A DNA stretch of 64,000 nt, from assembly GCF_017357105.1 (NCBI RefSeq), contig NZ_CP071596.1, forward strand, positions 1,550,001 through 1,614,000. Direction: 5' to 3'. The position numbers were made by a program, and so were the translations under genes. Under the pieces are notes generated by a model. That model saw nothing but the letters and a program-made list of their open reading frames with translations, made no database searches and was not told the origin of the DNA. The stretch comes from Natronosalvus caseinilyticus (GTDB lineage: Archaea > Halobacteriota > Halobacteria > Halobacteriales > Natrialbaceae). Shown here in pieces: positions 18,729-56,591 of this stretch (the stretch's first letter is position 1; every line of letters begins with the position of its first letter).

Positions 18729-19979
18729 ATGAATACAGGAAGGATGGCTAAAGTCACGAAGACGCTGGAGGTACGCCTTGTCGACCCCAATGCCCACAAA
18801 GAGCGCAAGCTTCGTGAGACGCACAAGGCATACCAGCAGGCGCTTCAGGCAGCCTTCGACGCCGACTGTACCACCCCGTCCGCTACCAACGCCATCGTCG
18901 TCGAGTACGACCTCTCCGGCTACGCGAAAAACGCGCTCAAGAAGTACGTCCCGCAACTGTGTGGTGCCAGCTACAACGCGAAAGAGCTTCACGACGACCA
19001 TCCCGTCCGCTTCACGAACGAAGGGCCGAAACTCGACCACAAGCCCCAGAACGCTATCGAGTGGTACGTCAAAATCCCCCACCACGACGACTACAACCTC
19101 TGGGTGCCCGCCGAACCGAATCCTGAACAGCGGGAGTGGCTCAAAGCGTTGCACGCAGGGGACGCAAAGATGGGCGAGTGTCGGCTGTTCGACCGCGACG
19201 GCGAGTGGTATTTTCACATCGTCGCTACGCGAAACGTGGAGGAACGACAGACTACCAATTCGGAGGCAACGGCGATTGGGGTAGACATCGGGGAAGCCTC
19301 TTTGGTAACGGTGTGTCACCGTGACGAGCGTGGCTCCCCGGCTGCACCCACCCTCTGGAACGACGAAGGCAAGCGGGTCAGACAACTCCGTGAGACGTAC
19401 TTTACGGCGACGCGACGCCTTCAGAAACGCGGAAGCGAACGTATTGCAGAGTCCTACGGAGACTCGCTCTGGCGGCAGATAGACGACATACTCCACACGG
19501 TCACGTCGGAGGTCGTCGCCTACGCCGACCAATTCGAGAATCCCGTATTGGTCCTCGAAGACTTGACGCACATCCGCGAGAACATGGACTACGGCGCGTT
19601 CATGAACCGCCGGTTGCACGGATGGGGCTTTGCGAAGATGCACGCTCAGATCCGGTACAAGGCCGCTGAGAAAGGGATTTGCGTAGAGACAGTAAATCCC
19701 GCGTACACCTCGAAGACGTGCCACTGTTGCGGAGAACAGGGTTATCGCCCCGACCAGGCGACGTTTAGGTGTTCCAACTCGGAGTGTTGGATCTCAGCGT
19801 ACCACGCGGATATTAACGCCGCGCTCAATATTGCAGATCGCTACCTCAGCGGAGAGAGCCACTCAAGAGAACACACGAGTGGCAATGACTCGGCTGAGGG
19901 AGGGGGACGTTTGACCGTCCCACAAGACAGCCAAGCCGATGCTACCCAGCAAGAGACGCTTGGAACGAACGCGTCTTGA
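18729..19979 (+). CDS. tnpB: TnpB, RNA-guided nuclease of IS200/IS605 elements
   Basis: 416 residues (ATG 18744 is an alternative start giving MAKVTKTLEVRLV). All three RuvC acidic residues are present: D186 in IGVDIGEASL, E277 in VLEDLTHIRE and D361 in YHADINAALNIA. A four-Cys zinc ribbon, CHCCGEQGYRPDQATFRC followed by a further Cys, lies between them. TnpB proteins cut DNA matching the guide carried by an RNA transcribed from the element's right end, which helps the element persist. All catalytic residues are intact, so activity is plausible. No tnpA neighbour is seen, so movement would need TnpA in trans. Confidence 0.92.
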   Translation: MNTGRMAKVTKTLEVRLVDPNAHKERKLRETHKAYQQALQAAFDADCTTPSATNAIVVEYDLSGYAKNALKKYVPQLCGASYNAKELHDDHPVRFTNEGPKLDHKPQNAIEWYVKIPHHDDYNLWVPAEPNPEQREWLKALHAGDAKMGECRLFDRDGEWYFHIVATRNVEERQTTNSEATAIGVDIGEASLVTVCHRDERGSPAAPTLWNDEGKRVRQLRETYFTATRRLQKRGSERIAESYGDSLWRQIDDILHTVTSEVVAYADQFENPVLVLEDLTHIRENMDYGAFMNRRLHGWGFAKMHAQIRYKAAEKGICVETVNPAYTSKTCHCCGEQGYRPDQATFRCSNSECWISAYHADINAALNIADRYLSGESHSREHTSGNDSAEGGGRLTVPQDSQADATQQETLGTNAS

Positions 19980-38799: not shown

Positions 38800-40134
38800 A
38801 TGCAAGATTCAGAACTAACCCAGACGCTCTCCTTTGGATTAACCATCCACGAGGGTAGTTCTGACAACTTGCTAGAAGGCTGTCTCGAAGCACGACGAAT
38901 CAGAAACGAGGTCAACCGTCTCGACCGTGAAGGCTGGGACTGGAACGACATCCACGACACGGTAGTGGACACCGCCACCCACGTCAAAAACACCACGCAA
39001 CTCCTCGTGCAGAAAGCACTCACGGAGATTGAAACGTACTTTGACCACAAAGACGATGGCTGGGGCCGACCGTTCCCCTACATTCACGAGCTGTATCCAA
39101 TGCGAATGAACCACGACGAAGGATACGCACTCACCGTGGACGACTCAGGAAACGTACGATTCCGTGTCAGTTATAAGCCATACAACTACGTCAAGGGCGT
39201 GCTTCGCGGTAGTCCTGGTCACCTCGACCGCGTGAAGAACGCACTTTCCTCGGATGCGTGGCGGGTGGGAGTTGCAGAACTCGTTCAGAAACACAACGAG
39301 TGGCGACTCCACGTCACCGTCACGCACAAACAGCGCACGGTTCGGGCGCCTGAAGAGGCTGGCACAGTGGTTGGCGTAGACATCAACGAAGACTGCGTTG
39401 CACTCGCCGCGATGGCTCGAGACGGAGACGTACTCGATTCACTCGTTCTTGAGTATCCAGACATCAAGCGTCTTCGCCACGAATACTTCACGAAGCGCAA
39501 GCGGATGCAGAAGGTTGGGCAGACTGCGTTCGAAACCGTGGTTCGGACGGAAGAACGCGACTTCGTTCACGACCACCTCCACAAAGTATCGCGTGACGTG
39601 ACTCAGTGGGTTTCGCAATTCAACGACCCGGTAATCGTCTTTGAAGACCTCAAAGACATGCGAGACTCCATCGACTACGGCACGCGAATGAACCGGCGCT
39701 TACACAGCCTCCCGTTCGCCGCACTTCGTGAGATGGTGACGTACAAAGCCGCTTGGGAAGCCATTCCTTCGGATGAAGTTGACCCCGAGTACACGAGCCA
39801 GCGGTGTCCACGGACGAAGTGTTTGCACACAGAGCGAGCGAATCGGTACAAGAAGCGATTCAAGTGCAACGAATGCGGGTTCCAAGACCATGCGGATAGG
39901 AAGGCAGCAGTTTGTGTGGCGCAAGACTGGTTTGACGAACAGGATGAAAATGTGCCGTCTCTCGACACCCTTCCGCGCGTGCGGAAGGTGAGACGGGCGG
40001 CATCGGGCCTGTGTGAAGAGGCCGACTCTCCCGGAGCAGTTTTTGCTTCGGGTGTTCACCGACACGGATCGTCGGCGCGAGGCAACCGCCAAGCGCGAGA
40101 GGAATTAAAGACTGTTGCGTCCACGGTGGATTAG
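38800..40134 (+). CDS. tnpB: TnpB, RNA-guided nuclease (second subtype)
   Basis: 444 residues, MQDSELTQTLSFGLTIHEGSSDN. RuvC residues are D194 (VVGVDINEDCVAL), E282 (VFEDLKDMRDS) and D366 (QDHADRKAAVCVA); a Cys ribbon (CPRTKCLHTERANRYKKRF then CNECG) precedes the last. The final motif has ADRKAA instead of the common ADINAA, and the protein differs widely from the copy at 18729, so the two come from separate lineages. The last 75 or so residues lack domain features and probably overlap the guide-RNA scaffold. Guide sequence would come from bases after about 40170. Confidence 0.9.
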   Translation: MQDSELTQTLSFGLTIHEGSSDNLLEGCLEARRIRNEVNRLDREGWDWNDIHDTVVDTATHVKNTTQLLVQKALTEIETYFDHKDDGWGRPFPYIHELYPMRMNHDEGYALTVDDSGNVRFRVSYKPYNYVKGVLRGSPGHLDRVKNALSSDAWRVGVAELVQKHNEWRLHVTVTHKQRTVRAPEEAGTVVGVDINEDCVALAAMARDGDVLDSLVLEYPDIKRLRHEYFTKRKRMQKVGQTAFETVVRTEERDFVHDHLHKVSRDVTQWVSQFNDPVIVFEDLKDMRDSIDYGTRMNRRLHSLPFAALREMVTYKAAWEAIPSDEVDPEYTSQRCPRTKCLHTERANRYKKRFKCNECGFQDHADRKAAVCVAQDWFDEQDENVPSLDTLPRVRKVRRAASGLCEEADSPGAVFASGVHRHGSSARGNRQAREELKTVASTVD

Positions 40135-40911: not shown

Positions 40912-41454
40912 CTAGAGTCGTCTGCTCGCGAACGGAAGGCGGAACGTGGACCGACTGGACGCACGCTGGGCGATTGCGAGGACCAAAACGAGAATGCAAA
41001 GCCCCAGCGCGACGAACGGGACGAGCCCCGACGACAGGGTGCCGACGGAAAAGCCGGCCAGGACGGCGACGACGGCGCTGGCGACCGAGACCGACGCGTA
41101 GTACCAGTGCCAGGGCCGCTGGTCCTCGAGGTTCCGATCCAGGTACGGCTCGAACGTCTCCTCGTTCGGCACCAACTCGATGCGGTGGGCGTCGGGATCC
41201 CAGTCGACGATGCCGTGATCTTCGAGCATCGGCAGGTGCGTCTGGTAGAGCGAGATGTACACGCGCCGACGCTGGGCGCGCGTCACCTCGTCGGTCGTCG
41301 TGTCGTTCTCCCAGGCGGCGACCTGTTCGACCAGCGGTGCCAGATCGCAGGTCCCGTGATGGCGTTTGAGGTACTGTACCGTCTGTCGTCGTCTGGCGTT
41401 GCTGAACACGTCGAACAGCTCCGCCTGCGTTAGCGTGCCATCGGTCATGGTCAT
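40912..41454 (-). CDS. Membrane-anchored winged-helix protein (DUF7344-like), paralog 2
   Basis: 180 residues from ATG 41454 (MTMTDGTLTQAELFDVFSNARRRQTVQYL; ATG 41448 also possible). AQRRRVYISLYQTHLPMLEDHGIVDWDPDAHRIELVPN parallels YKSVYVSLQQTHLPQLEEDGVIEYD of the paralog at 38113. Two membrane helices follow (YYASVSVASAVVAVLAGFSVG; LVPFVALGLCILVLVLAIAQ). It is divergent from the acetyltransferase cassette and could regulate it. Confidence 0.82.
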   Translation of the reverse strand: MTMTDGTLTQAELFDVFSNARRRQTVQYLKRHHGTCDLAPLVEQVAAWENDTTTDEVTRAQRRRVYISLYQTHLPMLEDHGIVDWDPDAHRIELVPNEETFEPYLDRNLEDQRPWHWYYASVSVASAVVAVLAGFSVGTLSSGLVPFVALGLCILVLVLAIAQRASSRSTFRLPFASRRL

Positions 41455-41843
41455 CGATGTCCTCGAAACCGCTCCCAGGTGCCCGTCGTCGAGAGACTCA
41501 CGCACTCAGGTGCCACCGAGTGACACTTTACTATCTCGCGGCTACCGTCTCGAAATCGGTTTGTACCGGTCTGCTTCGGTGTTTCTCATCACTATCGAAC
41601 TGTCACGCACGCGTGAACGCGAAACCCCCCTCTCGTCGCCGAAAGGTCGGTCGTCTCGTCGGTCTCGAGCCAGTGCCTGTTCGGTCGTAGTGGCGCGCTA
41701 CCGGCGCTCAGGCCGGGGATAACAAAGCCCGATTACCGGATGATCCTACGTGATTACCCAACCGGGTATTCGATCTCCATGTACACTGACCGATATCGAC
41801 GGACGAACGACCGAACGGCATCGACGACGCGAGGTGACCGGTC
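41455..41843. other. Divergent promoter region before the UDP-sugar cassette
   Basis: About 390 bp with no supported gene. It holds a GATAACAAAG element at 41718-41727, inside GGGGATAACAAAGCCC, about 117 nt before GTG 41844. A 22-codon frame starting at ATG 41779 overlaps the cassette start in another frame and is probably chance. Confidence 0.55.
41718..41727 (+). promoter_or_regulatory. GATAACAAAG element upstream of the UDP-sugar cassette
   Basis: An exact match to the sequence before aglB (15456-15465) and before the AP-superfamily gene (51622-51631). It may be a promoter element or regulator site. Confidence 0.45.
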
Positions 41844-42440
41844 GTGGCGGTGACCGAAGCGACCTACACGGCGGGCGACCGGTGTTCGATCGACGACGGG
41901 GCGACCGTCGGCTACGGCGTCGACGACGCGTTCGAACCGACCACGCTGGGCGACGATGCGACGATCCGTCGGGGATCGATCGTCTACGGCGACGTCGTCG
42001 TCGGGAACGACTTCACGACCGGCCACGACGTCCTCGTCCGCGAGGAGACGACGATCGGCCACGACGTCCTCCTGGGAACGAAGACGATCGTCGACGGGCG
42101 AACCGACATCGGCTCGCACGTGAGCATCCAGTCGGCCGTCTACGTTCCGACGGACACGACGATCGGGGACAACGTGTTCGTCGGCCCCGGCGCCGTCCTC
42201 ACGAACGACCAGTACCCCATCCGAACCGAGGTCGACCTCGAGGGACCGACCGTCGAGGACGGCGCCTCGATCGGCGCGAACGCGACCATCCTCCCCGGCG
42301 TCACGATCGGCGAGAACGCGTTCGTCGGGGCGGGGGCACTGGTGACCGAGGACGTCCCCCCGGACACGCTCGCGATCGGCGCGCCGGCGGAATCGAGAGC
42401 CCTCCCGGCACCCCTCGAGGGGCCGAACCGAATCGCATGA
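41844..42440 (+). CDS. WbpD-like UDP-sugar N-acetyltransferase (left-handed beta-helix)
   Basis: 198 residues from GTG 41844. Hexapeptide repeats fill the protein: VGYGVDDAFEPTTLGDDATI, TIGHDVLLGTKTIVDG, DIGSHVSIQSAVYVPTDTTI, TIGDNVFVGPGAVLTND and ASIGANATILPGVTIGENAF. The VGPGAVLTNDQYP segment is typical of enzymes that acetylate the 3-amino group of UDP-2-acetamido-3-amino-glucuronate. First gene of a cassette in which each gene overlaps the next by ATGA. A GTG start with only an upstream ATG in another frame supports this choice. Confidence 0.88.
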   Translation: MAVTEATYTAGDRCSIDDGATVGYGVDDAFEPTTLGDDATIRRGSIVYGDVVVGNDFTTGHDVLVREETTIGHDVLLGTKTIVDGRTDIGSHVSIQSAVYVPTDTTIGDNVFVGPGAVLTNDQYPIRTEVDLEGPTVEDGASIGANATILPGVTIGENAFVGAGALVTEDVPPDTLAIGAPAESRALPAPLEGPNRIA

Positions 42441-43549
42441 CCGGCGACATCTCCATCGCCGACCCCGACCTGGGCGAGGGGGTCTACGATCGGGTCCACG
42501 CGATTCTCGAGAGCGGCCAGCTCGCAGACGGCCCCGAGGTCCGACGCTTCGAGTCCGAGTTCGCCGACTACTGCGGCGCCGAGCACGGCGTCGCGACGAC
42601 GAACGGGACCACGGCGCTGGTGACCGCCCTCGAGGCGCTGGGCGTCGAGGCGGGTGACGCGGTCGTCACCTCGCCGTTCTCGTTCGTCGCCAGCGCGAAC
42701 GCGATCCGGCTGGCTGGAGCGACGCCGGTCTTCGCCGACGTCGACCTCGAGACGTACACGGTCGACCCCGAGGCCGTCGAGGCGGTCGTGTGCGAGCGCG
42801 AGGACGTCGTCGGCATCCTGCCGGTCCACCTCTACGGGTTGCCCGCAGCGATGGGCCCCCTGTGCGAGATCGCCGAGGCGAACGACCTATTCGTCCTGGA
42901 GGACGCCTGCCAGGCCCACGGCGCGGCCATCGACGGTGAGCGCGTCGGCAGCCTCGGGGACGCCGCCTGCTTCTCGTTTTACCCGACGAAGAACATGACG
43001 ACCGGCGAGGGTGGCATGATCACGACCGACAGCCAGGACGTGGCGAACGCCGCCGCGAGCTACGTCAACCACGGCCGGGACGTGACCGGAACGCGCGGCT
43101 ACGACCACGTCTCCCTCGGCGGGAACCACCGCATGACCAGCCTCGCCGCCGCCATCGGCCGGGCGCAACTCGAGCGCCTGACGGACTTCACGGAGGCGAG
43201 GCAGGCGAACGCAGCGTACTACGACGACGGGTTGGCCGACGTGCCGGTGGAGACGCCGACCGTCCCCGACGGGATGACCCACGTCTACCACCAGTACACC
43301 GTCGCGACGACCGACCGGGACGACCTCGCCGCCTGGCTCGAAGAGCGCGGGATCGGGACGGGTATCTACTACCCGACGCCGATTCACCGCCAGCCGGCCT
43401 ACGAGACGGTGAGCACGGCGGCCGCGACGCTGCCGAACGCCGAACGGGCCGCCGAGCGCGTGCTGTCGCTGCCCGTCCACCCGAACCTCGAACCCGCAGA
43501 CCGCGAGCGGGTCGTGCAAGCGATTACCGACTACTACGACTCACAATGA
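42437..43549 (+). CDS. DegT/DnrJ/EryC1-family PLP aminotransferase (WbpE-like)
   Basis: 370 residues from ATG 42437, MTGDISIADPDLGEGVYDRV. Family landmarks: FADYCGAEHGVATTNGTTALVTAL, VVTSPFSFVASANAIRLAGATPVFAD, EDACQAHGAAIDG and FSFYPTKNMTTGEGGMI, where the PLP lysine is in PTKNM; HYNHR-type end seen as GGNHRMTSLAAAIGRAQL. It would aminate the 3-keto sugar made by the oxidase encoded next. ATGA overlaps join it to both neighbours. Confidence 0.92.
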   Translation: MTGDISIADPDLGEGVYDRVHAILESGQLADGPEVRRFESEFADYCGAEHGVATTNGTTALVTALEALGVEAGDAVVTSPFSFVASANAIRLAGATPVFADVDLETYTVDPEAVEAVVCEREDVVGILPVHLYGLPAAMGPLCEIAEANDLFVLEDACQAHGAAIDGERVGSLGDAACFSFYPTKNMTTGEGGMITTDSQDVANAAASYVNHGRDVTGTRGYDHVSLGGNHRMTSLAAAIGRAQLERLTDFTEARQANAAYYDDGLADVPVETPTVPDGMTHVYHQYTVATTDRDDLAAWLEERGIGTGIYYPTPIHRQPAYETVSTAAATLPNAERAAERVLSLPVHPNLEPADRERVVQAITDYYDSQ

Positions 43550-44532
43550 CGAAACAGACTACTTCGACGGAGACGGTACGGGCCGGCGTCATCGGCGTCG
43601 GCTCGATGGGAGAGAACCACGCGCGCGTCTACAGCGAGTGCCGGGACGTCGACCTCGTCGGCGTCAGCGACCTCGACGAGGCACTCGCGGAGACGGTCGC
43701 CGCCCGTTACGGCACCGCCGCCGTGCCGATGGACGACCTGCTCGCGAACTGCGACGTCGTCACCGTCGCGGTGCCTACCCACGCTCACTACGAGACGGTC
43801 TCGGCGTGTCTCGAGGCCGGCGTGCACGTGCTGGTCGAGAAGCCGATCGCCGAAACCGTTGAGCAGGGCCGCTCTCTTGCGCGGAAGGCCGAGGAGGCCG
43901 GCCTCGTTCTGCAGGTCGGCCACATCGAGCGGTTCAACCCGGCCGTCGACACTCTCGAGTCGGTCATCGCCGACCTGGACGTGATCGCCGTCGAGGCCGA
44001 GCGTCTCGGCCCGCCGGTCGATCGGACGGCGACCGACGGCGTCGTCCTCGACCTGATGATCCACGACATCGACGTCGTCGGCTCGTTGCTCGAGTCCCGT
44101 CCCGAGGTGGTCTCGGCGACGAGCACCGACGACGGCCAGTACGCGACGGCGACGATGACGGCCGACGACGTGATCGTCTCGCTGACGGCGAGTCGCCGCA
44201 CCCAGAAGAAGGTGCGACGGCTCACGGTGACCGCCAGCGAGTGCCTCGTCGAGGTCGACTACCTCCAGCAGTCGGTGCTGATCCACCGGGATTCTTACCC
44301 CGAGTACGTCACCGACGAGGGGACGAACCGCCACCGACACGAGAGCGTCGTCGAGCGCCCGCGCGTCGAGAACGGCGAACCACTCAAGCGCGAACTCGAG
44401 TCGTTCGTCGACGCCGTGCGAAACGGCGACGAGCCGGTGGTCACTGGCGAAGACGGCGTGGCCGCCCTCGAGATGGTCGAACGGATCGACCGGTTCGTCG
44501 CCGACGAGGATCAGGAGGTGGTCGCTCGATGA
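43546..44532 (+). CDS. Gfo/Idh/MocA-family oxidoreductase (WbpB-like)
   Basis: 328 residues. VRAGVIGVGSMGENHARVYSEC is the NAD-binding site (GxGxMG); VAVPTHAHYETVSACLEAGVHVLVEKPIAETVEQG contains the conserved EKP of this family; LQVGHIERFNPAV and DLMIHDIDVV are substrate-side motifs. In the UDP-diacetamido-glucuronate pathway WbpB oxidises the 3-hydroxyl of UDP-GlcNAcA. The cassette context fits that role better than inositol metabolism. Confidence 0.92.
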   Translation: MTKQTTSTETVRAGVIGVGSMGENHARVYSECRDVDLVGVSDLDEALAETVAARYGTAAVPMDDLLANCDVVTVAVPTHAHYETVSACLEAGVHVLVEKPIAETVEQGRSLARKAEEAGLVLQVGHIERFNPAVDTLESVIADLDVIAVEAERLGPPVDRTATDGVVLDLMIHDIDVVGSLLESRPEVVSATSTDDGQYATATMTADDVIVSLTASRRTQKKVRRLTVTASECLVEVDYLQQSVLIHRDSYPEYVTDEGTNRHRHESVVERPRVENGEPLKRELESFVDAVRNGDEPVVTGEDGVAALEMVERIDRFVADEDQEVVAR

Positions 44533-46019
44533 GTCGGGCGACGACGGCCCTCTATGGCGGGCCAGATACCGAGGCCGCGAAACGACGGGCGCTGACGAAC
44601 GGATCGGTTCCGATCGCGGTGTACGGCCTCGGCAAGATGGGGCTCCCCCTCGCCGCGGTCTTCGCCGAGGGGACGGGCGCCGTGACCGGCGTCGACGTCG
44701 ATCCCGCGATCGTCGAGTCGGTGAACGCCGGTCGGAGTCACGTCGGCGGCGAACCCGGTCTCGACGACCTCGTCGCCGAGCAGGTTTCACGGGGTCGACT
44801 GCGGGCGACGACCGACGGGGCCGCTGCTGCCAGCGAGGCGCGCGTCCACGTGATCATCGTCCCGACGCTGATCACCGACGACGACGAACCGGAACCGGAC
44901 CTCTCGATTATCGAGGCGGTCCTGGAGGACGTCGCCAGTGGGCTCGAGCCAGGCGACCTCGTGATCGCCGAATCAACCTTGCCGCCGGGCACGTGTCGGG
45001 ACGTCATCGCCCCACACCTGACGGCCCGAAGCGGGCTCGAGTCCGGCTCGTTCGGCGTCGCGTTCTGCCCGGAGCGAACCGCCTCGGGGACGGCCCTGCG
45101 GGACATCCGCGGGCAGTACCCGAAGGTCGTCGGCGGCGTCGACGAGGCGAGCGGCCGGGCGGCCGCGCTGATCTACGACGAACTCTCGGACAACGCGGTC
45201 CACCTGGTCTCGGACGCGACGACGGCGGAAGCCGTCAAGGTGTTCGAGGGGGTCTACCGCGACGTCAACATCGCGCTGGCGAACCAGCTCGCGGGCACCG
45301 CCGACGACCTCGGGATCTCGGTGCGCGAGGCGATCGAGACGGCCAACCACATCCCGATGTGTCACCTGCACGACCCGGGGCCGGGCGTCGGCGGCCACTG
45401 CATCCCCTACTACCCGCACTTCCTGCTCGCCCAGACCGAGGCCCCGCTCTCGATGGTCGAACTCGGTCGCGAGGTCAATCGCGAGATGCCCGCGCGCGCG
45501 GTGGCGATGCTCGAGGCGGCGCTCGACGGTACGGGCACGGACGAGAGTAAAAGCCGGGGGAAGGAACCCGCGGACAGCCTCGAGGACGCCACGGTCCTCG
45601 TCCTCGGGTTCACCTACCGACCGGGCGTCGAGGAGACGCGAGCCTCCCCCGCCATCGGCGTCGTCGAGTCCCTCTGCGAGCGCGACGCCGAGGTCTGGGG
45701 CTGCGACCCGCTGGTCGACCCGACCGACTTCGGCGCTCGAGCGATCGACGTCGAGGACCTGGCCTCGGGTCCCGCGTTCGATGCGGCGATTCTCGTCACG
45801 CCCCAGGACGCCTTCGAGCGAATCCCGTGGGCCGACCTCGAGCCGATGGTGGTCCTCGACGGCCGGGACGTGCTCTCGCTGTCGAACACGGACCACCGGG
45901 TCGTCACGCTCGGCGGCGCGCGCGACGGTCGGCCGACGGTCGTCGACGGCGACGTGCCGACCGAAACCGGCACCTCGACGATCGGTCGCCCGGCGGCGTT
46001 CGACGCGACCGGACGGTAG
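44529..46019 (+). CDS. Nucleotide-sugar dehydrogenase (WbpA/WecC-like UDP-GlcNAc 6-dehydrogenase)
   Basis: 496 residues from ATG 44529. IAVYGLGKMGLPLAAVFAEG is the NAD site, ESTLPPGTC and AEAVKVFEGVYRDVNIALANQLA the central helix with conserved Lys, and GPGVGGHCIPYYPHFL the catalytic cysteine motif. LVLGFTYRPGVEETRASPAIGVVESL begins the C-terminal UDP-binding half. A charged insert (DESKSRGKEPADSLED) precedes it. The enzyme oxidises UDP-GlcNAc at C6 to the uronate, the first step of the cassette's pathway, although it is encoded last. Confidence 0.92.
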   Translation: MSRATTALYGGPDTEAAKRRALTNGSVPIAVYGLGKMGLPLAAVFAEGTGAVTGVDVDPAIVESVNAGRSHVGGEPGLDDLVAEQVSRGRLRATTDGAAAASEARVHVIIVPTLITDDDEPEPDLSIIEAVLEDVASGLEPGDLVIAESTLPPGTCRDVIAPHLTARSGLESGSFGVAFCPERTASGTALRDIRGQYPKVVGGVDEASGRAAALIYDELSDNAVHLVSDATTAEAVKVFEGVYRDVNIALANQLAGTADDLGISVREAIETANHIPMCHLHDPGPGVGGHCIPYYPHFLLAQTEAPLSMVELGREVNREMPARAVAMLEAALDGTGTDESKSRGKEPADSLEDATVLVLGFTYRPGVEETRASPAIGVVESLCERDAEVWGCDPLVDPTDFGARAIDVEDLASGPAFDAAILVTPQDAFERIPWADLEPMVVLDGRDVLSLSNTDHRVVTLGGARDGRPTVVDGDVPTETGTSTIGRPAAFDATGR

Positions 46020-46048
46020 TTCGCGCTTTTCGTCGGTCGAGAGCGACG

Positions 46049-46155
46049 CAGGGACTGGTTAGCCAACGGCGAGCGAGCCGACAGGAACCGGTTAGCCGAC
46101 CGCAAGCTCCTCGTCGGTCGAGAACGGCGCAGGGACCGATTAGCCAACCGAGAGC
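46049..46155. repeat. Three imperfect 26-bp direct repeats
   Basis: Copies at 46049-46074, 46082-46107 and 46130-46155 share CAGG(G)AC.G.TTAGCC and end AGC. The first and third also share a preceding CGTCGGTCGAGA. They lie between the UDP-sugar dehydrogenase stop codon and the next gene. Confidence 0.75.
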
Positions 46156-46307
46156 CATCGTAGCCGGTCCTGACTCGCTGGAAGCCGAAGAATAACGAAA
46201 CCACCGCCAGTCGTCCGTCCGTTCATGACCGAACTGTTCGCGCTCGAGCGGGCCGGTGGCTGTCGCGTGGCCTCGACCTCGACTTCGAGGGATCGGCAGT
46301 GGTCGAT

Positions 46308-47816
46308 GTGAAGACCGTCGTCTTCGCGTTCGAGGGCGTGACGAACCGACACCTCGAGCGCTTTGCCGACGTGATGCCGACCGTTTCTGGCCTTCGAACC
46401 GACGGCGTCTCGGGGTCGCTCGAGTCGACCGTTCCGGCCAGTCCGGCGAGCGCCTGGGCGTCGCTCTTGACGGGGACCGACCCGAGTTTCCACGGCGTCT
46501 TCGACGACGCCGTCCGCGCGAGCTACCCCGACGACGATTGTCGGCCAGCCTCCGCCATCGACGTCCGCCGGCCGACCCTTTGGGCGTACCTCACCGGCGA
46601 GGGGGGCTCCACGGTGGCCTGTGGAGTACCGATGACCGACCCGCCGGGACCGGTGAGCGGCGTCGTGGTTCCCGGACGGCGCCCCGCGGGGTCTGTCGAC
46701 GGCCGTCTGTCGGATGATCCCGCGGACGCGAGACTCCCGTCCGGCTCACCCGGCTCGCCGTGGACGCTCCGGGACCTCGAGGACCCCGCCGAGGTGCCGA
46801 CGCTCCTCGAGACGCGACGTCGCCTCGCTTGCGATTTGCTCGAGGCCGAGCCATGGGAGCTGGCGCTCGTCCACGTTCCGGTCGCCGATCCGGACCTCCT
46901 CGAGACCGTCGACGCGGACGTTGGCGACCGCGCCCTCGAGGCCGCGTGCCGGGCTGCGGATCGACTCGTCCGGGACGTCCTCGAGGTCGCTCCCGAGGAA
47001 TCGACCGTCATCGGGTGTTCGCCGCTCGGCGTCGAGCGCTCGCGAGGGTATCGCGTCCACGTCAACGAGGTGCTCGCCGATCACGACCTGCTCGAGCGGA
47101 ACGCACGAAACTGTCGGTGGCGACCCGGCGTCCTCGAATCGGTGCTCAGCGTCGTCTCTGGGGCGCTCGGTGGCGGTTTTCACGCGAACAGAAAGGACGT
47201 CGACGGGTACCGGTGGGCGACCTCGGAGGCGTTCTTCCCGAGTGCGACCGGTGCAGGGGTCCGTCTCAACGTCGCCGGCCGGGAGCGCTACGGTCGAGTC
47301 GTCAACTCCACGTACGAGGAGACCCGGTCGCGGGTGCTCGAGGCGCTGGCCGACCTCGCGGATCCGGACGGGAACCCCGCCCTCGAGTTCGCCTGCCGAC
47401 GTGAGCACCTCTACGAGGGGCCGTTCGCTCGCGAAGCACCCGATGTCCTCGTCTCCACGGCGGGGACGAACTGTACGGTGTCGGCCGCTCCCGCGAATCG
47501 GGTATTCACGCGGCTCGAGGGCGTGACGCGAACGGGTGTCGGGACGTTCTTCGCGTCCGGGCCGACGATCCAGGTGTCCCCGGAACCGGTTTGTCTCACC
47601 GCCGCGGACGTCGCGCCGCTGGTGATGGCGACGCTGAGTCGCCCGGTTCCCCGTCTGATGACCGGGCGCGATCCGTCGGCGCTGACGACTGCCCCTGTCG
47701 GATACGGCACATACGCGAACGTCGCGCACGGCACGGCCTGTGACGACCCCACGTTCGACGATGCGCGCCTGGGGGAGCGCCTCGAGGAGTTCGATTACCG
47801 GTCTCGAAACAACTGA
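46308..47816 (+). CDS. AP-superfamily protein lacking key metal ligands (probable pseudoenzyme)
   Basis: 502 residues from GTG 46308 (KTVVFAFEGVTNRHL; GTG 46299 possible). The fold matches the AP/phosphodiesterase neighbours: TVPASPASAWASLLTGTDPSFHGVF around the nucleophile, APDVLVSTAG, GVGTFFASGPTI and LTAADVAPLVMATLSRPVPRLMTGRDP. But the first metal Asp is Glu (FAFEGV), the SDHG motif is GCSP (residues 236-239), and the DxxxH pair is incomplete (VADPDLLETV). It may be catalytically dead, or act with another chemistry. It ends LGERLEEFDYRSRNN, a weak form of the common C-terminal signature. An AATAACGAAA element lies about 115 nt upstream. Confidence 0.75.
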   Translation: MKTVVFAFEGVTNRHLERFADVMPTVSGLRTDGVSGSLESTVPASPASAWASLLTGTDPSFHGVFDDAVRASYPDDDCRPASAIDVRRPTLWAYLTGEGGSTVACGVPMTDPPGPVSGVVVPGRRPAGSVDGRLSDDPADARLPSGSPGSPWTLRDLEDPAEVPTLLETRRRLACDLLEAEPWELALVHVPVADPDLLETVDADVGDRALEAACRAADRLVRDVLEVAPEESTVIGCSPLGVERSRGYRVHVNEVLADHDLLERNARNCRWRPGVLESVLSVVSGALGGGFHANRKDVDGYRWATSEAFFPSATGAGVRLNVAGRERYGRVVNSTYEETRSRVLEALADLADPDGNPALEFACRREHLYEGPFAREAPDVLVSTAGTNCTVSAAPANRVFTRLEGVTRTGVGTFFASGPTIQVSPEPVCLTAADVAPLVMATLSRPVPRLMTGRDPSALTTAPVGYGTYANVAHGTACDDPTFDDARLGERLEEFDYRSRNN

Positions 47817-47915: not shown

Positions 47916-48671
47916 CTATCGGTCTCTCATACTATCCGCCTCGAACGCCTCGAGCGCGTCTCCGGTCACTCCCTCACGTGAGAGCAGCGTCAGAAGGTCG
48001 TCGGGTTCGATCTCGGTATCGCCGCGGGGAGTCAACACGGCGTCGTCGCGCTCAATGGCGATCACGAGTACGTCGTCGGGGAGGACGCCCTCCCTAGCGG
48101 CGCGCTCGAGCGAGAGCCCCGCGATGGGGGCCGATTCGGCGACGGTCACCTCGACGACCTCGGCGCCGCCGGTCAGGCTGATGTAATCTGAGAGTGGCTG
48201 TGGCGTCCGGTCGTCGGGGCCGAAGGGGCGGTAGGCCTGGTAGTGTTCGGCCTGGAGCAAGTCCTCGTCCTCGATGTCGATTCCGAGGGAGGCGATCTCG
48301 CGGGCGATTCGGCGCAGATCGTTCGTGTCCGTACCGACGGCGAGCACGTGGAGGTTTCGTCGACCGGTCATGAGCTCGCGGACGTTGATCACGCCGGGAA
48401 TCAGTCGCACCTGGTGGGCCATGCGCTCGCGGTCGTCGACCGGGGCGTTACAGAGGTAGAGATTCCGTAACCGGCCGTCGCCGCGCTCGAAGTCGACGTT
48501 CGCGTGATAGCCCTCGATCACGCCCGCCTCCTCGAGTTGCCCGATTCGGTTGCGGATCGTCGCCGCCGAAACGCCCACCTCGTCGGCGATCATCGGCGCC
48601 GAGGTGGACCGCGCGTCCTCCATGAGGGCGTGGATGATGCGCCTGTTGACCTCGTCCAGACGAATGTCCAT
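47916..48671 (-). CDS. Lrp/AsnC-type regulator with C-terminal RCK (TrkA-C) domain
   Basis: 251 residues. MDIRLDEVNRRIIHALMEDARSTSAPMIADEVGVSAATIRNRIGQLEEAGVI is the AsnC helix-turn-helix; an Lrp-like ligand domain follows (VRLIPGVINVRELMTGRRNLHVLAVG), then a TrkA-C domain from about residue 165 (GGAEVVEVTVAESAPIAGLSLERAAREGVLPDDVLVIAIERDD). RCK domains sense nucleotides or ions, so it may link potassium or second messengers to transcription. TTAATAC about 21-29 nt upstream fits a leaderless start. Confidence 0.9.
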   Translation of the reverse strand: MDIRLDEVNRRIIHALMEDARSTSAPMIADEVGVSAATIRNRIGQLEEAGVIEGYHANVDFERGDGRLRNLYLCNAPVDDRERMAHQVRLIPGVINVRELMTGRRNLHVLAVGTDTNDLRRIAREIASLGIDIEDEDLLQAEHYQAYRPFGPDDRTPQPLSDYISLTGGAEVVEVTVAESAPIAGLSLERAAREGVLPDDVLVIAIERDDAVLTPRGDTEIEPDDLLTLLSREGVTGDALEAFEADSMRDR

Positions 48672-49254: not shown

Positions 49255-50217
49255 ATGGACGTACTCACGCTCACGAACGCCGCGGACGCGCCGTTTTTGA
49301 ACCAGCAACAGGCTGCCCTCGAGCGCTGCGGCGTTCGATTCGAGACGCTGTCGGTCGCCGGCGACGTGACCGGCGAGAACGCTCGCGGGCCGCTCGAGTA
49401 CCTCCAGTTCTTCCGGACGGTGCGCCGCGAACTGGATCGCGAATACGACCTGATCCACGCCCACTACGGGCTCACGGCCCCGATGGCGCTCGCCCAGCGA
49501 CGGGTGCCGGTCGTCTGCTCGCTCTGGGGATCGGACGTCCACGGCCCCGTCGCACCCGTGAGTCGCTTCTGTGCACCCTTCTGTGACGAGGTGATCGTCA
49601 TGTCCGAGGCGATGGCCGACGCGCTCGGTCGGGAGTGTCGCGTGATCCCCGACGGCGTCGACCTCGAGACCTTTCGGCCGGGGTCACAGGCGGCCGCTCG
49701 TGACCGCGTCGGCTGGCCCACCGACGAGCACGCGGTCCTGTTCCCATACGCGCCCGACCGGTCGGTGAAGAACTACCCGCGGGCGAAACGGATCGTCGAC
49801 CGCGCCGACGGCCGCCTCGAGCGGCCCGTCTCCCTGCGGACGATTACGGGCGTCGACCACGACGAGATGCCCCACTACATGAACGCCGCCGACGCCCTCC
49901 TGGTGACCTCCCACAGTGAGGGTTCGCCAAACGCGGTCAAGGAGGCGATGGCCTGTGACCTCCCGGTGGTCGCCGTCGACGTCGGTGACGTGCGCGAACG
50001 CCTCGAAGGTGTCTCCCCGTCGTGCGTGGCCGACGCGGACGACGTCCTGGTCGAGGGACTGACGACGATCCTCGAGTCGGGGGCCCGGTCGAACGGCCGC
50101 AAGGCCGCTCGCGAGGTGAGTCTGGAGCGCACGACCGACGCCGTCCTCGAGGTCTACGAGTCGGTAACGGGGCTCGAGCGCGCAGACCAGCGGCGAACGC
50201 GAGTGGCGCGGTCCTGA
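49255..50217 (+). CDS. Glycosyltransferase family 4
   Basis: 320 residues from ATG 49255 (MDVLTLTNAADAPFLNQQQAALE). HAHYGLTAPMALAQRRVPVVCSLWGSDVHG is the GT4 acceptor-side motif; VIPDGVDLETFRPGS and FPYAPDRSVKNYPRAKRIVD start the donor domain; SEGSPNAVKEAMACDLPVVAVDVGD carries EX7E (E222, E230). It is shorter than most GT4 enzymes but complete. Together with the deacetylase and AP genes it repeats the trio in the first glycan locus. Confidence 0.9.
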   Translation: MDVLTLTNAADAPFLNQQQAALERCGVRFETLSVAGDVTGENARGPLEYLQFFRTVRRELDREYDLIHAHYGLTAPMALAQRRVPVVCSLWGSDVHGPVAPVSRFCAPFCDEVIVMSEAMADALGRECRVIPDGVDLETFRPGSQAAARDRVGWPTDEHAVLFPYAPDRSVKNYPRAKRIVDRADGRLERPVSLRTITGVDHDEMPHYMNAADALLVTSHSEGSPNAVKEAMACDLPVVAVDVGDVRERLEGVSPSCVADADDVLVEGLTTILESGARSNGRKAAREVSLERTTDAVLEVYESVTGLERADQRRTRVARS

Positions 50218-50385: not shown

Positions 50386-51378
50386 TCAGTCGTCGCCACC
50401 GACGGTTTGCGTGATACTCGTCTCGATCCCCTCCTCGTCCGCGTTCTCGCTTTCGTCGGCGTCCTCGGCCGACTTGCCGACTCGAGCGGCGACCTCGTCC
50501 ATCGTCTCCACGGTGAGGTCGGTTTCTCGACGCTGCTGGTCGATGTAGGCGAGGATTGCCCGCATTCGCTCGTCGTCGCGGTCGGTCGTGAGGTTGTTCG
50601 GGTGGAGCCAGAGGTGACAGAGCCGGTCGTCGTCGGCCGCGACGGCCTGATCGATCGCCCGGCGGGCCGTGACGACCATCGGGTCGGTCCAGACGGACTC
50701 GGCGACGGTGCGGGCGACGCTCTCGAATCCGAAGCAAAACAGCGAGGCCGGCACGTTCACCAGGCCGTGCTCGTCGACCGTTGGTTCGACTAGCACCGAG
50801 CGCCCGCCCAGGCCAGTCTCGAGGACCGCCCGGAACCCCTCCGGCGTCGACGTTCGGCCCCGGTAGGCGGTGAACCCCGCCTCGGCGAGCGCGGCCCGGT
50901 GGCCGACGTTGTTTCGCGGGTAGACGAACGACGAGCACTCGAGGCCCCACTCGTCGGCCAGGTCGAGCGCCCGCTCGAACTCGGCGCGAGCCAGTTCCCG
51001 ATCGGTGCTCGGCGCGCCGAAGAGGACGTGAGAGAAGGAGTGACTCGCGAACTCGTGGTCGACCGGCGACTCGAGCACGGACCGGACCAGGTCGGGACCG
51101 AACCGGAGGTCGGGGCGATCCTTCCAGTCGGTCCGCTCACGCTCGAACCAGCCAGCCGGGGCGGGGTGGTCGACGTGGCGGCCGTCGCAGTCTTCGAGCA
51201 TGAGGTGGCCGACGACGGCCCACGTGGCGGGGACGTCGTAGGCCTCGAAGGCCTCGCGGAGGGCGTGCCAGCCGCGTCGGCAGCGCTCGATGCGGTCGGC
51301 CGGTGGTGGGTGGAGGTCGAGAAATCCCCAGCCGAGCTCGGCGTCGACCGAGACGACGACGCTACCCACGACGGTCAC
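50386..51378 (-). CDS. Polysaccharide deacetylase (NodB-like)
   Basis: 330 residues, GTG start at 51378 (MTVVGSVVVSVDAELGWGF), with the metal Asp in SVDAE. Motif 2 is DHEFASHSFSHVLF (HxxxH), motif 3 FVYPRNNVGHRAALAEAGF, and LCHLWLHPNNL the late His motif. The set is complete for a zinc-dependent deacetylase. No signal peptide, so it acts inside the cell, as with the other two in the window. The last 30 residues are acidic. A CATAACAAAA element lies about 74 nt upstream on its strand. Confidence 0.85.
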   Translation of the reverse strand: MTVVGSVVVSVDAELGWGFLDLHPPPADRIERCRRGWHALREAFEAYDVPATWAVVGHLMLEDCDGRHVDHPAPAGWFERERTDWKDRPDLRFGPDLVRSVLESPVDHEFASHSFSHVLFGAPSTDRELARAEFERALDLADEWGLECSSFVYPRNNVGHRAALAEAGFTAYRGRTSTPEGFRAVLETGLGGRSVLVEPTVDEHGLVNVPASLFCFGFESVARTVAESVWTDPMVVTARRAIDQAVAADDDRLCHLWLHPNNLTTDRDDERMRAILAYIDQQRRETDLTVETMDEVAARVGKSAEDADESENADEEGIETSITQTVGGDD

Positions 51379-51686: not shown

Positions 51687-53282
51687 ATGAGCGGATCTAC
51701 ATCGACGACGGCGTCCGAGCGAGCGTTCGTGCTCGGGCTCGACGGCGTCCCCTGGAACTTGATCGAACGCTGGACCGACGAGGGCGAGCTCCCGAACTTC
51801 GCCCGGCTGCGTGAGGAGGGGGCATCGGGCCCGCTCGACAGCACGCGCCCGGCGACGACGCCACTGGCGTGGCCGTCGATTGCGACCGGTGTCTGGCCCG
51901 ACAAACACGGCATTTACGGCTTTCAACAGCTCTCTTCGTCGTACTCACACCGGATGTACACCAGCCGGGACTGCAAGCAGCCGCCGCTGTGGGAACAACT
52001 CGGCCCTGCGGTCGTCGGTAACGTCCCGATGACGTACCCGGCGACCGCCATCGACGGCGAGGTGGTCTCGGGGATGATGACGCCCTCGCTCGAGCACGAC
52101 TTCACCCATCCACCAGAACTCGCCGACGAGGTCGTCGACCGGATTCCCGACTACCAGATCAGCCTCAACTACCCCGACTACGCCGACCGCCTCGACGAGT
52201 TCGAGGTCGCGGTCTCGGACATCCTCAGAAAGCGCCGGGAGTTGATGCGACTGTTGATGGAGCGTCGAGACGACTGGGAGCTGTTCTTCTTCGTCTACAC
52301 CGCCCCCGATCGCTTTCAGCACCTCATCTGGGACGAAGACCGCATCCTCGAGCAGTACCGCGCGCTCGACGACATTCTCGGCGAGGTGATGGACTACACC
52401 GACGAGCACGACGCTGACCTCTACGTCGTCTCCGACCACGGGTTCGGGCCCATCGACGAACTCGCCTACCCGAATCACTTCCTCGAGCGGGAGGGCTACC
52501 TCTTCGAGGAGGAAGACGACGGAACTCGCGGCGCGCTCGCGAGCCTGGGGATCTCCCGGGAACGCGTCTCGAGTGCGCTGAACCGGGTCGGCATCTCCGA
52601 GGAGTTCCTGGTCTCGAAGCTGCCGCGTCAGCTACTGGACTCCGTCGCCGAGCAGATACCGGGCCAGCACGCCCTCTACGACGTGGACTACGAGCGAACC
52701 GTCGCGTTCGTCCACGACGCGGGTAACCTCTACGTCAACGACTCGGATCGGTTCGACCACGGCGTCGTCTCGCCGCGGGAGATTCCGGCGCTCAAGGCCG
52801 AACTCACCGACCTCTTCGAGTCGATCACCGATGACGCGGTCGAGCGCGTCTTCGTCGTCTACGACGGCGACGACCTCTTCCCGACGGACCCCGATTCGCC
52901 GGACCTCATCGTCAACGGGACGAACCGTTACGAGGGGCGCAACGCCGTCACCGACGAACCGTTCGGCGACCCGTCGCCGACCGCCGCGAGCCATCGCCCC
53001 GAGGGGATCATGCTCTGTCGCGGCCCGTCGATCGAACCCGGGGCGACGCTGCGGGGTGCACGGGTCGTCGACGTCGCCCCCACGTTGCTCCACGGGATCG
53101 GCAAGCCCGTCCCCACGAACGCCGACGGCCGGGTTCTCTTCGACGCGTTCCGACCGGACGCCGAACCAACCGGGACCAAGGTCGCCCGCCGAGACGTCAC
53201 GAGCGAGCGCGACCAAGAGAGCGTCGACGACGACTTTTCGGGCGTCGAGGACCGATTGAAGGGCCTCGGCTACATGGAGTGA
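51687..53282 (+). CDS. AP-superfamily phosphodiesterase/nucleotide pyrophosphatase-like enzyme
   Basis: 531 residues from ATG 51687 (MSGSTSTTASERAFVLGLDGVPWNL). All metal ligands appear intact: Asp in LGLDGV, Thr nucleophile in TTPLAWPSIATGVWPDKHGI, D/H in TAPDRFQHLIW, SDHG in YVVSDHGFGPIDE and late His in TAASHRPEGIM. DVAPTLLHGIGKPVPTNADGR is the usual C-terminal block. It ends VEDRLKGLGYME. No signal peptide. Neighbours suggest it acts on a glycan-linked phospho-ester; activity on nucleotide sugars is possible. Confidence 0.88.
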   Translation: MSGSTSTTASERAFVLGLDGVPWNLIERWTDEGELPNFARLREEGASGPLDSTRPATTPLAWPSIATGVWPDKHGIYGFQQLSSSYSHRMYTSRDCKQPPLWEQLGPAVVGNVPMTYPATAIDGEVVSGMMTPSLEHDFTHPPELADEVVDRIPDYQISLNYPDYADRLDEFEVAVSDILRKRRELMRLLMERRDDWELFFFVYTAPDRFQHLIWDEDRILEQYRALDDILGEVMDYTDEHDADLYVVSDHGFGPIDELAYPNHFLEREGYLFEEEDDGTRGALASLGISRERVSSALNRVGISEEFLVSKLPRQLLDSVAEQIPGQHALYDVDYERTVAFVHDAGNLYVNDSDRFDHGVVSPREIPALKAELTDLFESITDDAVERVFVVYDGDDLFPTDPDSPDLIVNGTNRYEGRNAVTDEPFGDPSPTAASHRPEGIMLCRGPSIEPGATLRGARVVDVAPTLLHGIGKPVPTNADGRVLFDAFRPDAEPTGTKVARRDVTSERDQESVDDDFSGVEDRLKGLGYME

Positions 53283-53899: not shown

Positions 53900-54140
53900 G
53901 CACTCGAGGCCGAGGGCGATACGACGTTCCTCGGATGGGCTGGTCGATCCCGTTCCGAGCACGTCCGCCGAACTCGAGCAGCACCATATTGATGGGTAAC
54001 TGACACCTGTTCTCACGCTGCTCTCGAAGTAATTCAGGAGTGACTGTAAACGGATTGAATAAGAACAATACGTAACAACACAGTATTATCTGGCGGAATA
54101 TTGATGATTGATCGTCAGACAATCACTGTCGTGTCACATA

Positions 54141-56591
54141 GTGAAACGGCGTACATTCATTAAAACTGTCACGAGCACGCTCGCGGGATTGGCTGCGACC
54201 CAACCCACGCAGGCCGCAGATTCCGCCCTCGATTGTGGCGTCTGGTACGACGCCGAGATCACCCGCGTCGTCGACGGCGACACCTTCGACGTCTACGTCT
54301 ACGAGACCGGTGAGGAGTACAACGTCCGTACGCTCGGGCACGACACGCCCGAGAAAACGGGAAACACCACGTACGAGAAAATCGAGGAGTGGGAGTTCAT
54401 CGAGGACGAGTCCCACCTCGAGCACTGGGGTAACGAGGCCACCAACTTTGCCGAGACGGAACTCCCGGCGGGTTCGGCCTGCCAGGTCCAGGTCGACTGC
54501 GCATCCGAGGAAATCGACCAGTTCGGCCGTCTCCTCGCGAAGATCAGGTACGATCGAAACGGCGACGGCGCCTACACGGTGTACAACAAACTCACCCTCG
54601 AGGAGGGGTACGCCCGTGTGTACGCCGCGAGCCTGACGAACACCGACGAGTACCTCGAGGCCCAGGAGGCCGCCCGAGCGGCCGGGCGGGGGCTCTGGGT
54701 CGCCGACGACGGCTACGTCTCGGAGTGGCGAAACGACGACGTCGCGGCGACGTTCCACCCCCACGCCTCGAGCGTCAGGACGACGGATGGCCCCGTTCCC
54801 GACTCACGAGTGCCGGTCTGGGCCGAGGACACCGCCGTCCAGGAGAACACCACCGCGAGCACCGTCGACTACGACGCGATCCCGATGGTCGGCGTCGACG
54901 AGTCGTGCAACCTCGCGTACTTCGGCGGCTGTACGATCAACGAGCGCTGGGAGGGCGAGTCGGCCGACCTGGACCACTTCACGTTCGTCACGAACCTGAT
55001 CGATCATCTGCACGGGAGCGACGATCCCTCCGGGCCGGTGCTGGTCGACGGCGGCCACCGGACGTTCGAACAGGACAACGCGGTTTCGGCGGAGGACACC
55101 GCGTACTACCAGCGCCACCTCGAGGGGCTCGGTATCGAACTCCACAGCATCAACGCCTACGGGAACGGACGCGGGTACAGCCTGTCGGATGCTCGCGCGC
55201 TCGTCGCTTCCTGTAGCCCGGAGGCGTGGACCGGGGCGGAAATCGCGGAGGTACAGGAGTTCGTCGACCAGGGCGGCGTCGTCCTCCTGCTGGGCAGCGG
55301 CAGCGAGACTGCCGGGGAACGAGCCAACCTCGACGACCTCGCCGCGGGTCTCGGATCGGACCTCCGCCTCAACTACGACGACGTTCGAGACGATACGAAC
55401 TACGCCGGTGGCAGTCGAAAGCTCCTCCAAACGGGGCGGCTGAACACGACCGACTTCGACCTCTGGTCGGCTTACGAGAGCGGGAAGGGCGTTCGGACGG
55501 ACGTCCTGCGAGCGTCGCCGAACGATCCCACCGTCGCCGCGGACCACGTCTGGACGCTCGCGGACTCCGCCGACGAGTTCAACGGCGAGGTCGACACGAT
55601 CACCGTCGACTACCCTGACGGGACCAGTCTAGACGGCCTCACGAACGACGACGTGACCGTCTACCTGGACCGCGACGGCGATGGCACGGTCGACGAGATT
55701 CCGGTTAACTCCGATTCCTACGCTGGGAGCACCGCCACCTTCGACCTCGACGGTCGGTACAATACGTCAGTCGAGGGCGAGGTGCGCGTCGAGATCGCCG
55801 GCGTCGCGAATCCGGAGTCGGGCGAGTACGTCGCGACGGAGACGCTCGAGGGCGACGACACCCTCTCGGTCGACGTCGAGTACAACGTGACCGACCTGCG
55901 GGTCGCGACGGATTCGGCCACTCGCGTCGGCGAGACGTCCGCGACGCTGAACGGAACGCTCGAGGACCTCGACGGCGCGGACTGGGGTGAAGTGTACTTC
56001 GAGTGGGGGCCAACGGGCGACCTCGAGATGACCACTCCCTCCCGCTTGCTCGAGGAAACGGGATCGTTCAGCGAAGATATCGACGGTCTCGAGGCCGGTC
56101 AGGAGTACGAGTTCCGCGCCGTCGTCGAGTCGAACCACGGCTACACGGCCTACGGTTCCGTGCGGTCGTTCACCGCTCGGAGCGACGTTCGGACGGACGT
56201 CCTCGAGGCCGACCCGGCAACGGCGGGTACGGAGTCGTACCACACGTGGACCCTCGCGGACCTGTCCGCCGACTTCGACGGCGAGGTCGACACGATCACG
56301 GTCGACTATCCTGACGGAACCAGCGTAGACGGGCTCACGAACGACGACGTGACCGTCTACATGGACCGCGACGGAGACGGGACGGTCGACGAGATCGCCG
56401 TCAACTCGAACGAATACGCCGGAAGCGCCGCAACGTTCGACCTCAACGGCGTCTACAACACGTCGGTCGAGGGCGAGGTGCGCGTCGAAATCGATGGTGT
56501 GACCAATCCCGTGTCGGGCGAGTACGTCGCTAACGAGACGCTCGAGGGGGAGGATTTCCACTCCGTCGACGCCGAATTCATCGTGGACTGA
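54141..56591 (+). CDS. Tat-exported mosaic protein: staphylococcal-nuclease domain plus surface modules
   Basis: 816 residues from GTG 54141. The N-terminus KRRTFIKTVTSTLAGLAATQ is a Tat signal. Residues about 35-195 form an SNase domain with DGDTFDVYVYE, VRTLGHDTPEKT (Arg, Asp, Glu) and QFGRLLAKI, the full catalytic set. Residues about 250-450 resemble a GATase-like/DUF4350 domain (VLVDGGHRTFEQDN, VVLLLGSGSE). Two related modules of about 130 residues start VRTDVL at 452 and 683 and flank a fibronectin-III-like piece. Probably a secreted nuclease anchored or folded outside the cell. The combination is unusual. Confidence 0.85.
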   Translation: MKRRTFIKTVTSTLAGLAATQPTQAADSALDCGVWYDAEITRVVDGDTFDVYVYETGEEYNVRTLGHDTPEKTGNTTYEKIEEWEFIEDESHLEHWGNEATNFAETELPAGSACQVQVDCASEEIDQFGRLLAKIRYDRNGDGAYTVYNKLTLEEGYARVYAASLTNTDEYLEAQEAARAAGRGLWVADDGYVSEWRNDDVAATFHPHASSVRTTDGPVPDSRVPVWAEDTAVQENTTASTVDYDAIPMVGVDESCNLAYFGGCTINERWEGESADLDHFTFVTNLIDHLHGSDDPSGPVLVDGGHRTFEQDNAVSAEDTAYYQRHLEGLGIELHSINAYGNGRGYSLSDARALVASCSPEAWTGAEIAEVQEFVDQGGVVLLLGSGSETAGERANLDDLAAGLGSDLRLNYDDVRDDTNYAGGSRKLLQTGRLNTTDFDLWSAYESGKGVRTDVLRASPNDPTVAADHVWTLADSADEFNGEVDTITVDYPDGTSLDGLTNDDVTVYLDRDGDGTVDEIPVNSDSYAGSTATFDLDGRYNTSVEGEVRVEIAGVANPESGEYVATETLEGDDTLSVDVEYNVTDLRVATDSATRVGETSATLNGTLEDLDGADWGEVYFEWGPTGDLEMTTPSRLLEETGSFSEDIDGLEAGQEYEFRAVVESNHGYTAYGSVRSFTARSDVRTDVLEADPATAGTESYHTWTLADLSADFDGEVDTITVDYPDGTSVDGLTNDDVTVYMDRDGDGTVDEIAVNSNEYAGSAATFDLNGVYNTSVEGEVRVEIDGVTNPVSGEYVANETLEGEDFHSVDAEFIVD

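Follow-up and report, generated by a model that had tools for sequence, protein, structure and literature searches.

Gene content of the locus

The 64,000-nucleotide stretch of DNA analysed here (the window) comes from the genome of Natronosalvus caseinilyticus, which we call G000. It contains a cluster of nucleotide-sugar genes whose members were assigned from profile matches and synteny. The cluster begins with four genes on the forward strand, encoding a hexapeptide acyl/acetyltransferase (WbpD-like, 41844–42440, PF00132), a DegT/DnrJ/EryC1 aminotransferase (WbpE-like, 42437–43549, PF01041 at 7.6e-121), a Gfo/Idh/MocA oxidoreductase (WbpB-like, 43546–44532, PF01408) and a UDP-sugar 6-dehydrogenase (WbpA-like, 44529–46019, PF03721/PF00984/PF03720). 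This WbpD/E/B/A-like series presumably corresponds to a UDP-diacetamido-uronic acid set.

The next gene, which is the subject of this work, encodes a 502-residue, degenerate NPP-like protein (PF01663; 46308–47816, + strand, from the reading frame and the profile match). It starts with GTG, and a second in-frame GTG lies upstream, at 46299; the orthologs keep the start position at 46308. The frame (46299/46308–47816) is open throughout in G000, and its GC3 of 0.83 is within the range of most neighbours (0.79–0.93), in agreement with an earlier reading made from the sequence alone, which had described a gene of normal codon use devoid of stops and frameshifts. The 288-base gap that precedes it (46020–46307) contains imperfectly repeated GGTTAGCCRACCG-like units, which vary among sister genomes, followed by about 120 well conserved bases up to the start of the gene; TRF called no tandem repeat array in this upstream region.

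Downstream, and convergent with the degenerate gene, is a gene coding for an Lrp/AsnC regulator with a TrkA_C domain (47916–48671, − strand, PF13404 and PF02080). This HTH–TrkA_C fusion gene is syntenic in at least nine genomes and its product may regulate the cluster. Then come a GT4-type glycosyltransferase (49255–50217, + strand, PF13439/PF13692), a polysaccharide-deacetylase-like protein (50386–51378, − strand, marginal match to PF01522), and a second PF01663 protein, which we call type B (51687–53282, + strand) and which, from profile, alignment and synteny, is an active enzyme with all seven catalytic residues. The gene order from the acetyltransferase to type B is entirely or largely kept in G114, G112, G117, G116, G111, G115 and G086. 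In Natronoglomus mannanivorans (G007) the synteny reaches the glycosyltransferase and extra genes precede type B, while the degenerate copy of G121 is cut by the end of a contig. The synteny thus spans the genus and two other genera.

Three other reading frames were named by eye or by their general appearance. Just upstream of the operon, 38800–40134 (+ strand) encodes a TnpB-like protein bearing a zinc-finger region of the CxxC type, and a second TnpB-like frame may lie at 18729–19979. Adjoining the cluster on the other side, 54108–56591 (+ strand) codes for an exported-looking protein with a thermonuclease-like N-terminus and repeated domains, conserved in two sister genomes.

Fold and catalytic positions of the degenerate protein

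The 502-residue protein belongs to PF01663, which it matches at 62.3 bits (the curated cut-off is 23). Its AlphaFold2 model has a pLDDT of 87 and a pTM of 0.87, and the best match of this model among solved structures is the Xac NPP (2gsn), with a Z score of 28.8 and an rmsd of 3.8 over 342 aligned residues; an active relative scores nearly the same against Xac NPP (Z 29.9). The protein is therefore predicted to have an intact alpha/beta fold of the AP superfamily (NPP type), as the sequence-only reading had supposed. It is probably cytoplasmic, and the insert found at about 262–340 in the active homologs is shortened. The only resemblance to phosphonoacetate hydrolase PhnA (TIGR02335) is a weak N-terminal match, whose 17 bits are far under the cut-off of that family (407), and the catalytic site is lost.

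Seven positions define catalysis in the NPP family: a first aspartate (D1), the nucleophile threonine, the Asp and the His of a DxxxH pair, the Asp and the His of an SDHG motif, and a C-terminal histidine. The positions D, D, H, D, H and H are metal ligands. We assigned them from an alignment with close active relatives and from a profile alignment to ENPP4 and ENPP1, in which D, T, DxxxH and SDHG line up. The active homologs read D-T-D-H-D-H-H, whereas the window protein reads E-P-D-L-P-L-R. Six of the seven positions have thus changed, the nucleophile and the three histidines among them, and this is what separates the protein from the NPP family (Xac NPP, ENPP1–7), with which it shares the profile match, a predicted fold over about 340 residues and the framework motifs around the nucleophile and SDHG.

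The metal-ligand Asp D1 is replaced by Glu9 (46332–46334), and the DxxxH pair is broken, since its Asp194 (46887–46889), the sole unchanged residue of the seven, has no partner His; both changes had been recognized earlier. The loss of SDHG had also been seen, as GCSP at residues 236–239. The motif is indeed destroyed, but that register was two residues out: the C-S-D-H-G of the active relatives aligns to C-S-P-L-G, so that Pro239-Leu240 (47022–47027) replace the Asp and the His. The claim that the nucleophile region is kept applies to the surrounding framework (P43, S48, A49, W50, S52 and TG 55–56), but not to the nucleophile itself: the threonine that is invariant among active relatives (WTGSAW) is Pro46 (46443–46445). 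This substitution and that of the C-terminal metal-ligand His (HKxxG) by Arg408 (47529–47531) had both been missed.

Compared with an active NPP/AP enzyme, the window protein has a proline in place of the Thr or Ser nucleophile, and E9, D194, no His, P239, L240 and R408 at the positions of the six metal-binding residues D, D, H, D, H and H. We infer that it has no phosphodiesterase activity and binds no metal; H189, C105, C237 and H251 are candidate residues for an alternative metal site, to judge from the alignment.

Homologs that share the loss

Homologs were searched in the family (125 genomes) and in the order (392 genomes). Used alone as the query in a scan of contigs, the protein retrieved no relatives; an alignment used in its place gave 286 matches. 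The loss of catalytic residues is common to 11 homologs from Natronosalvus and related Natrialbaceae. At the seven positions they read EPDLPLR in G000, G112 and G114, EPDRPLQ in G117, EPDFPTQ in G116, EPTLPRS in G115, DITLPAR in G111, CPASTHR in G086, -PDWPYR in G121, DSDQSHH in G007 and DVEGTRL in the second copy of G085. None of the 11 has the DxxxH His or the SDHG Asp; the other catalytic residues were replaced at different times, lineage by lineage. The G007 copy retains D, S, D, H and H, and might, from its residues, still bind metal. The gene was not found in Natronosalvus hydrolyticus AArc-curdl1 (G113), whose assembly is broken on both sides of the locus (the Gfo/Idh gene ends contig C38 and type B starts contig C36).

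In a tree built with the seven columns masked, the 11 degenerate copies form one clade, with a support of 100/100 against 53 active rows. The clade holds at 99 when masks of 17 columns are placed around each motif and the longest row is removed. It is sister to the active enzymes that we call type A, and its stem branch is long (1.04 changes per column); the control for long-branch attraction, by a mixture model and the removal of the longest row, is a partial one. Several independent losses are disfavored by the trees obtained with narrow and wide masks. The active rows nearly all read DTDHDHH, the rest showing one gap, without any catalytic substitution, and in a separate collection of 65 further homologs 59 read DTDHDHH, six are gapped and none is substituted. 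Being common to 11 homologs in one clade, and without counterpart among the active homologs, the loss is not an artefact of sequencing or of chance.

The type A parent and the type B enzyme

The closest active relatives of the degenerate protein, type A (for example L048, L049 and L051), are mostly 35–41% identical to it and have the same domain layout. They differ from it by their intact D-T-D-H-D-H-H, by their longer helical insert (about 262–340), and by the Wzx-like flippase gene that the active type A gene typically adjoins. In the operons of G049, G050 and G119, an active type A gene stands where other genomes have the degenerate one. In G085 (L047:6942–12405) an active type A gene, a Wzx-like flippase gene and a degenerate copy follow one another in a single run, which is likely a snapshot of the original duplication. 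G111, G115, G116, G121, G086 and G007 have the active type A and the flippase elsewhere, at another place or on another contig.

An active type A and a close flippase are both missing from G000, G112, G114 and G117; among these four, only G114 has a flippase match, at 31% identity. A hidden active type A was sought in the window genome, which has only more distant paralogs, with 42–43% identity to the active type A used as query, and which lacks a close flippase. Since the degenerate copy stays where type A and the flippase are missing, the dead copy has outlived the active one in these genomes.

The sequence-only reading had named the enzyme at 51687 as the active paralog of the degenerate protein. 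Type B does have the seven catalytic residues, but it forms a separate subfamily, is only 22% identical to the degenerate protein, and is not its parent: both the tree and the alignment designate type A, which is closer. The same reading had proposed that the degenerate protein may be a scaffold or regulator of this enzyme, and one may ask whether it is a dedicated regulator of type B, or a subunit of a hetero-oligomer with it. Type B is found in every genome that has a degenerate copy; in most of them both genes belong to one syntenic block, with type B some 4 kb downstream, and in G007 the distance is about 10 kb. However, it occurs equally in G049, G050, G119, G076, G082 and G103, which have no degenerate copy, so that the pairing does not appear to be specific, and in G085 about 750 kb separate the two genes. 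A tie to the 51687 enzyme is conceivable but disfavored, and a dedicated partnership, against which the low identity of the two proteins also speaks, is improbable.

The window contains another PF01663 paralog (10460–11974, − strand), which reads D-T-N-H-D-H-N, with Asn in place of the DxxxH Asp and of the C-terminal His, and with SDHG and the nucleophile intact. Its homolog in G195 reads D-T-M-H-D-H-N. From these residues, the two may represent a one-metal variant family.

Selection on the degenerate gene

We estimated dN/dS among G000, G112 and G114 with HKY-weighted sites, uncorrected for multiple hits. The degenerate gene gives 0.26–0.30, the highest value of the cluster. Its neighbours range from 0.03 to 0.27 and are mostly below 0.2; the active 51687 enzyme is at 0.04–0.08, and an HTH regulator (40912–41505), at 0.22–0.27, comes close to the degenerate gene. 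Among G111, G115 and G116, the degenerate gene is 43–50% identical, as compared to 64–84% for the neighbours and 65–72% for the active type A; the acetyltransferase of G116 was misassigned in this comparison, for the contig of G116 ends before that gene. The identity of the degenerate gene between genomes is thus 20–30 points below that of the neighbours. These comparisons show the gene to be clearly under purifying constraint, although weaker than that on most neighbours, and its higher dN/dS and lower identity indicate that relaxed selection accounts for some of the change.

It may then be asked whether the gene is decaying slowly toward loss, being open only by chance or from a recent need. 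It is the fastest-evolving gene of the cluster, and its catalytic positions vary among lineages. On the contrary, the frames are open in all 11 copies over about 500 codons (that of G121 ends at a contig edge) despite only about 38–54% identity between genera, no internal TAG or TGA stop was seen when the homolog frames were read directly, and dN/dS is far from the value of about 1 that neutrality would give. In addition, the structural core positions W50, TG55–56, R170, W183, N253, N321 and R325 are unchanged. Slow decay is thus very unlikely; the open frames and the dN/dS also rule out a pseudogene or a frameshift artefact. The idea of a maintained pseudoenzyme, initially put forward from one sequence, is supported by the loss of residues throughout the clade, the undisrupted orthologs, their dN/dS and the predicted fold.

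The former active site and the proposed role

The term "pocket" refers below to the sequence neighbourhood of the catalytic motifs and not to a site in three dimensions. Near the old active site, several positions have acquired a new residue common to the seven copies of the genus: A7, C105, G106, R124, W152, H189, P191, P239, T384 and T387. Conservation of the pocket columns in the degenerate copies is 0.56, against 0.50 for the remaining columns, a difference without statistical significance (p 0.17), and well below the 0.74 of the pocket columns in active sets matched for divergence. As read from the alignments, this pattern fits a pocket that is reused rather than simply abandoned; drift after a burst of change on the stem branch would be an alternative explanation compatible with the same values.

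The shared residues raise the question of a new activity, either independent of metal or with different ligands, involving H189, C105, C237, E9, R124 and H251. C105, G106, R124, W152, H189, P191, T384 and T387 are common to 7/7 genus copies as a set that the active homologs do not have, H251 is invariant in the genus, and C237 is invariant in the degenerate and active groups alike. However, the new set is missing from the deeper degenerate lineages (G007, G085, G086 and G121), so that the clade as a whole is not defined by one new catalytic set, and dN/dS is above that of the neighbouring enzymes. We consider a neofunctionalized enzyme to be unlikely.

We favor the hypothesis, with a probability of about two in three, that the gene codes for a duplicated phosphodiesterase that has turned into a non-catalytic component of a surface-glycan pathway, in which it would probably bind a ligand or form a complex. 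The gene has been retained by its relatives over a long evolutionary span and its product keeps the fold but has lost nearly all its catalytic and metal-binding residues, so that the protein probably has a non-enzymatic function in the production of cell-surface sugars. The ancestor would be a metal-dependent phosphodiesterase or pyrophosphatase of type A; the active type A gene adjoins a Wzx-like flippase gene and, in several genomes, lies inside or next to a nucleotide-sugar operon. Type A would have been duplicated in Natrialbaceae, and one copy would have ceased to need its two-metal site and been retained for a non-catalytic role. Its vestigial pocket would most likely still bind a ligand of the nucleotide-sugar or lipid-phosphate type, or contact a partner enzyme, and in either way would tune or assemble the surface-glycan pathway encoded nearby. 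Ligand binding or complex formation is suggested here by synteny, by the conservation of the pocket and by the loss of catalysis.

More tentatively, in Natronosalvus the old active site could have been rebuilt as a metal-free ligand pocket, for example that of a sensor of the UDP-sugar which the neighbouring operon produces, a proposal that we regard as possible but doubtful. If it is true, a nucleotide-sugar receptor has evolved from a nucleotide-cleaving enzyme, and has outlived both the active enzyme and the flippase beside which it originated.

Significance

Pseudoenzymes that derive from duplicated enzymes have already been described; dead myotubularins, for instance, regulate active ones (PMC11314389). 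The present case is alike in that the fold is kept, catalysis is lost and the duplicate is retained. In the literature that we searched, the coverage of which was partial, we found no case of an AP/NPP-superfamily pseudoenzyme in an archaeal glycan operon. To annotate the degenerate gene as an "alkaline phosphatase family protein" would mislead.

In related archaea the locus presents a graded series, which runs from the active enzyme alone, through adjacent active and dead copies, partial loss, and complete loss accompanied by a re-fixed pocket, to genomes in which the dead copy has survived the active one. The transition from enzyme to pseudoenzyme in the NPP/AP superfamily thereby becomes testable, and the series also opens a search for a non-catalytic component of haloarchaeal surface-glycan synthesis.
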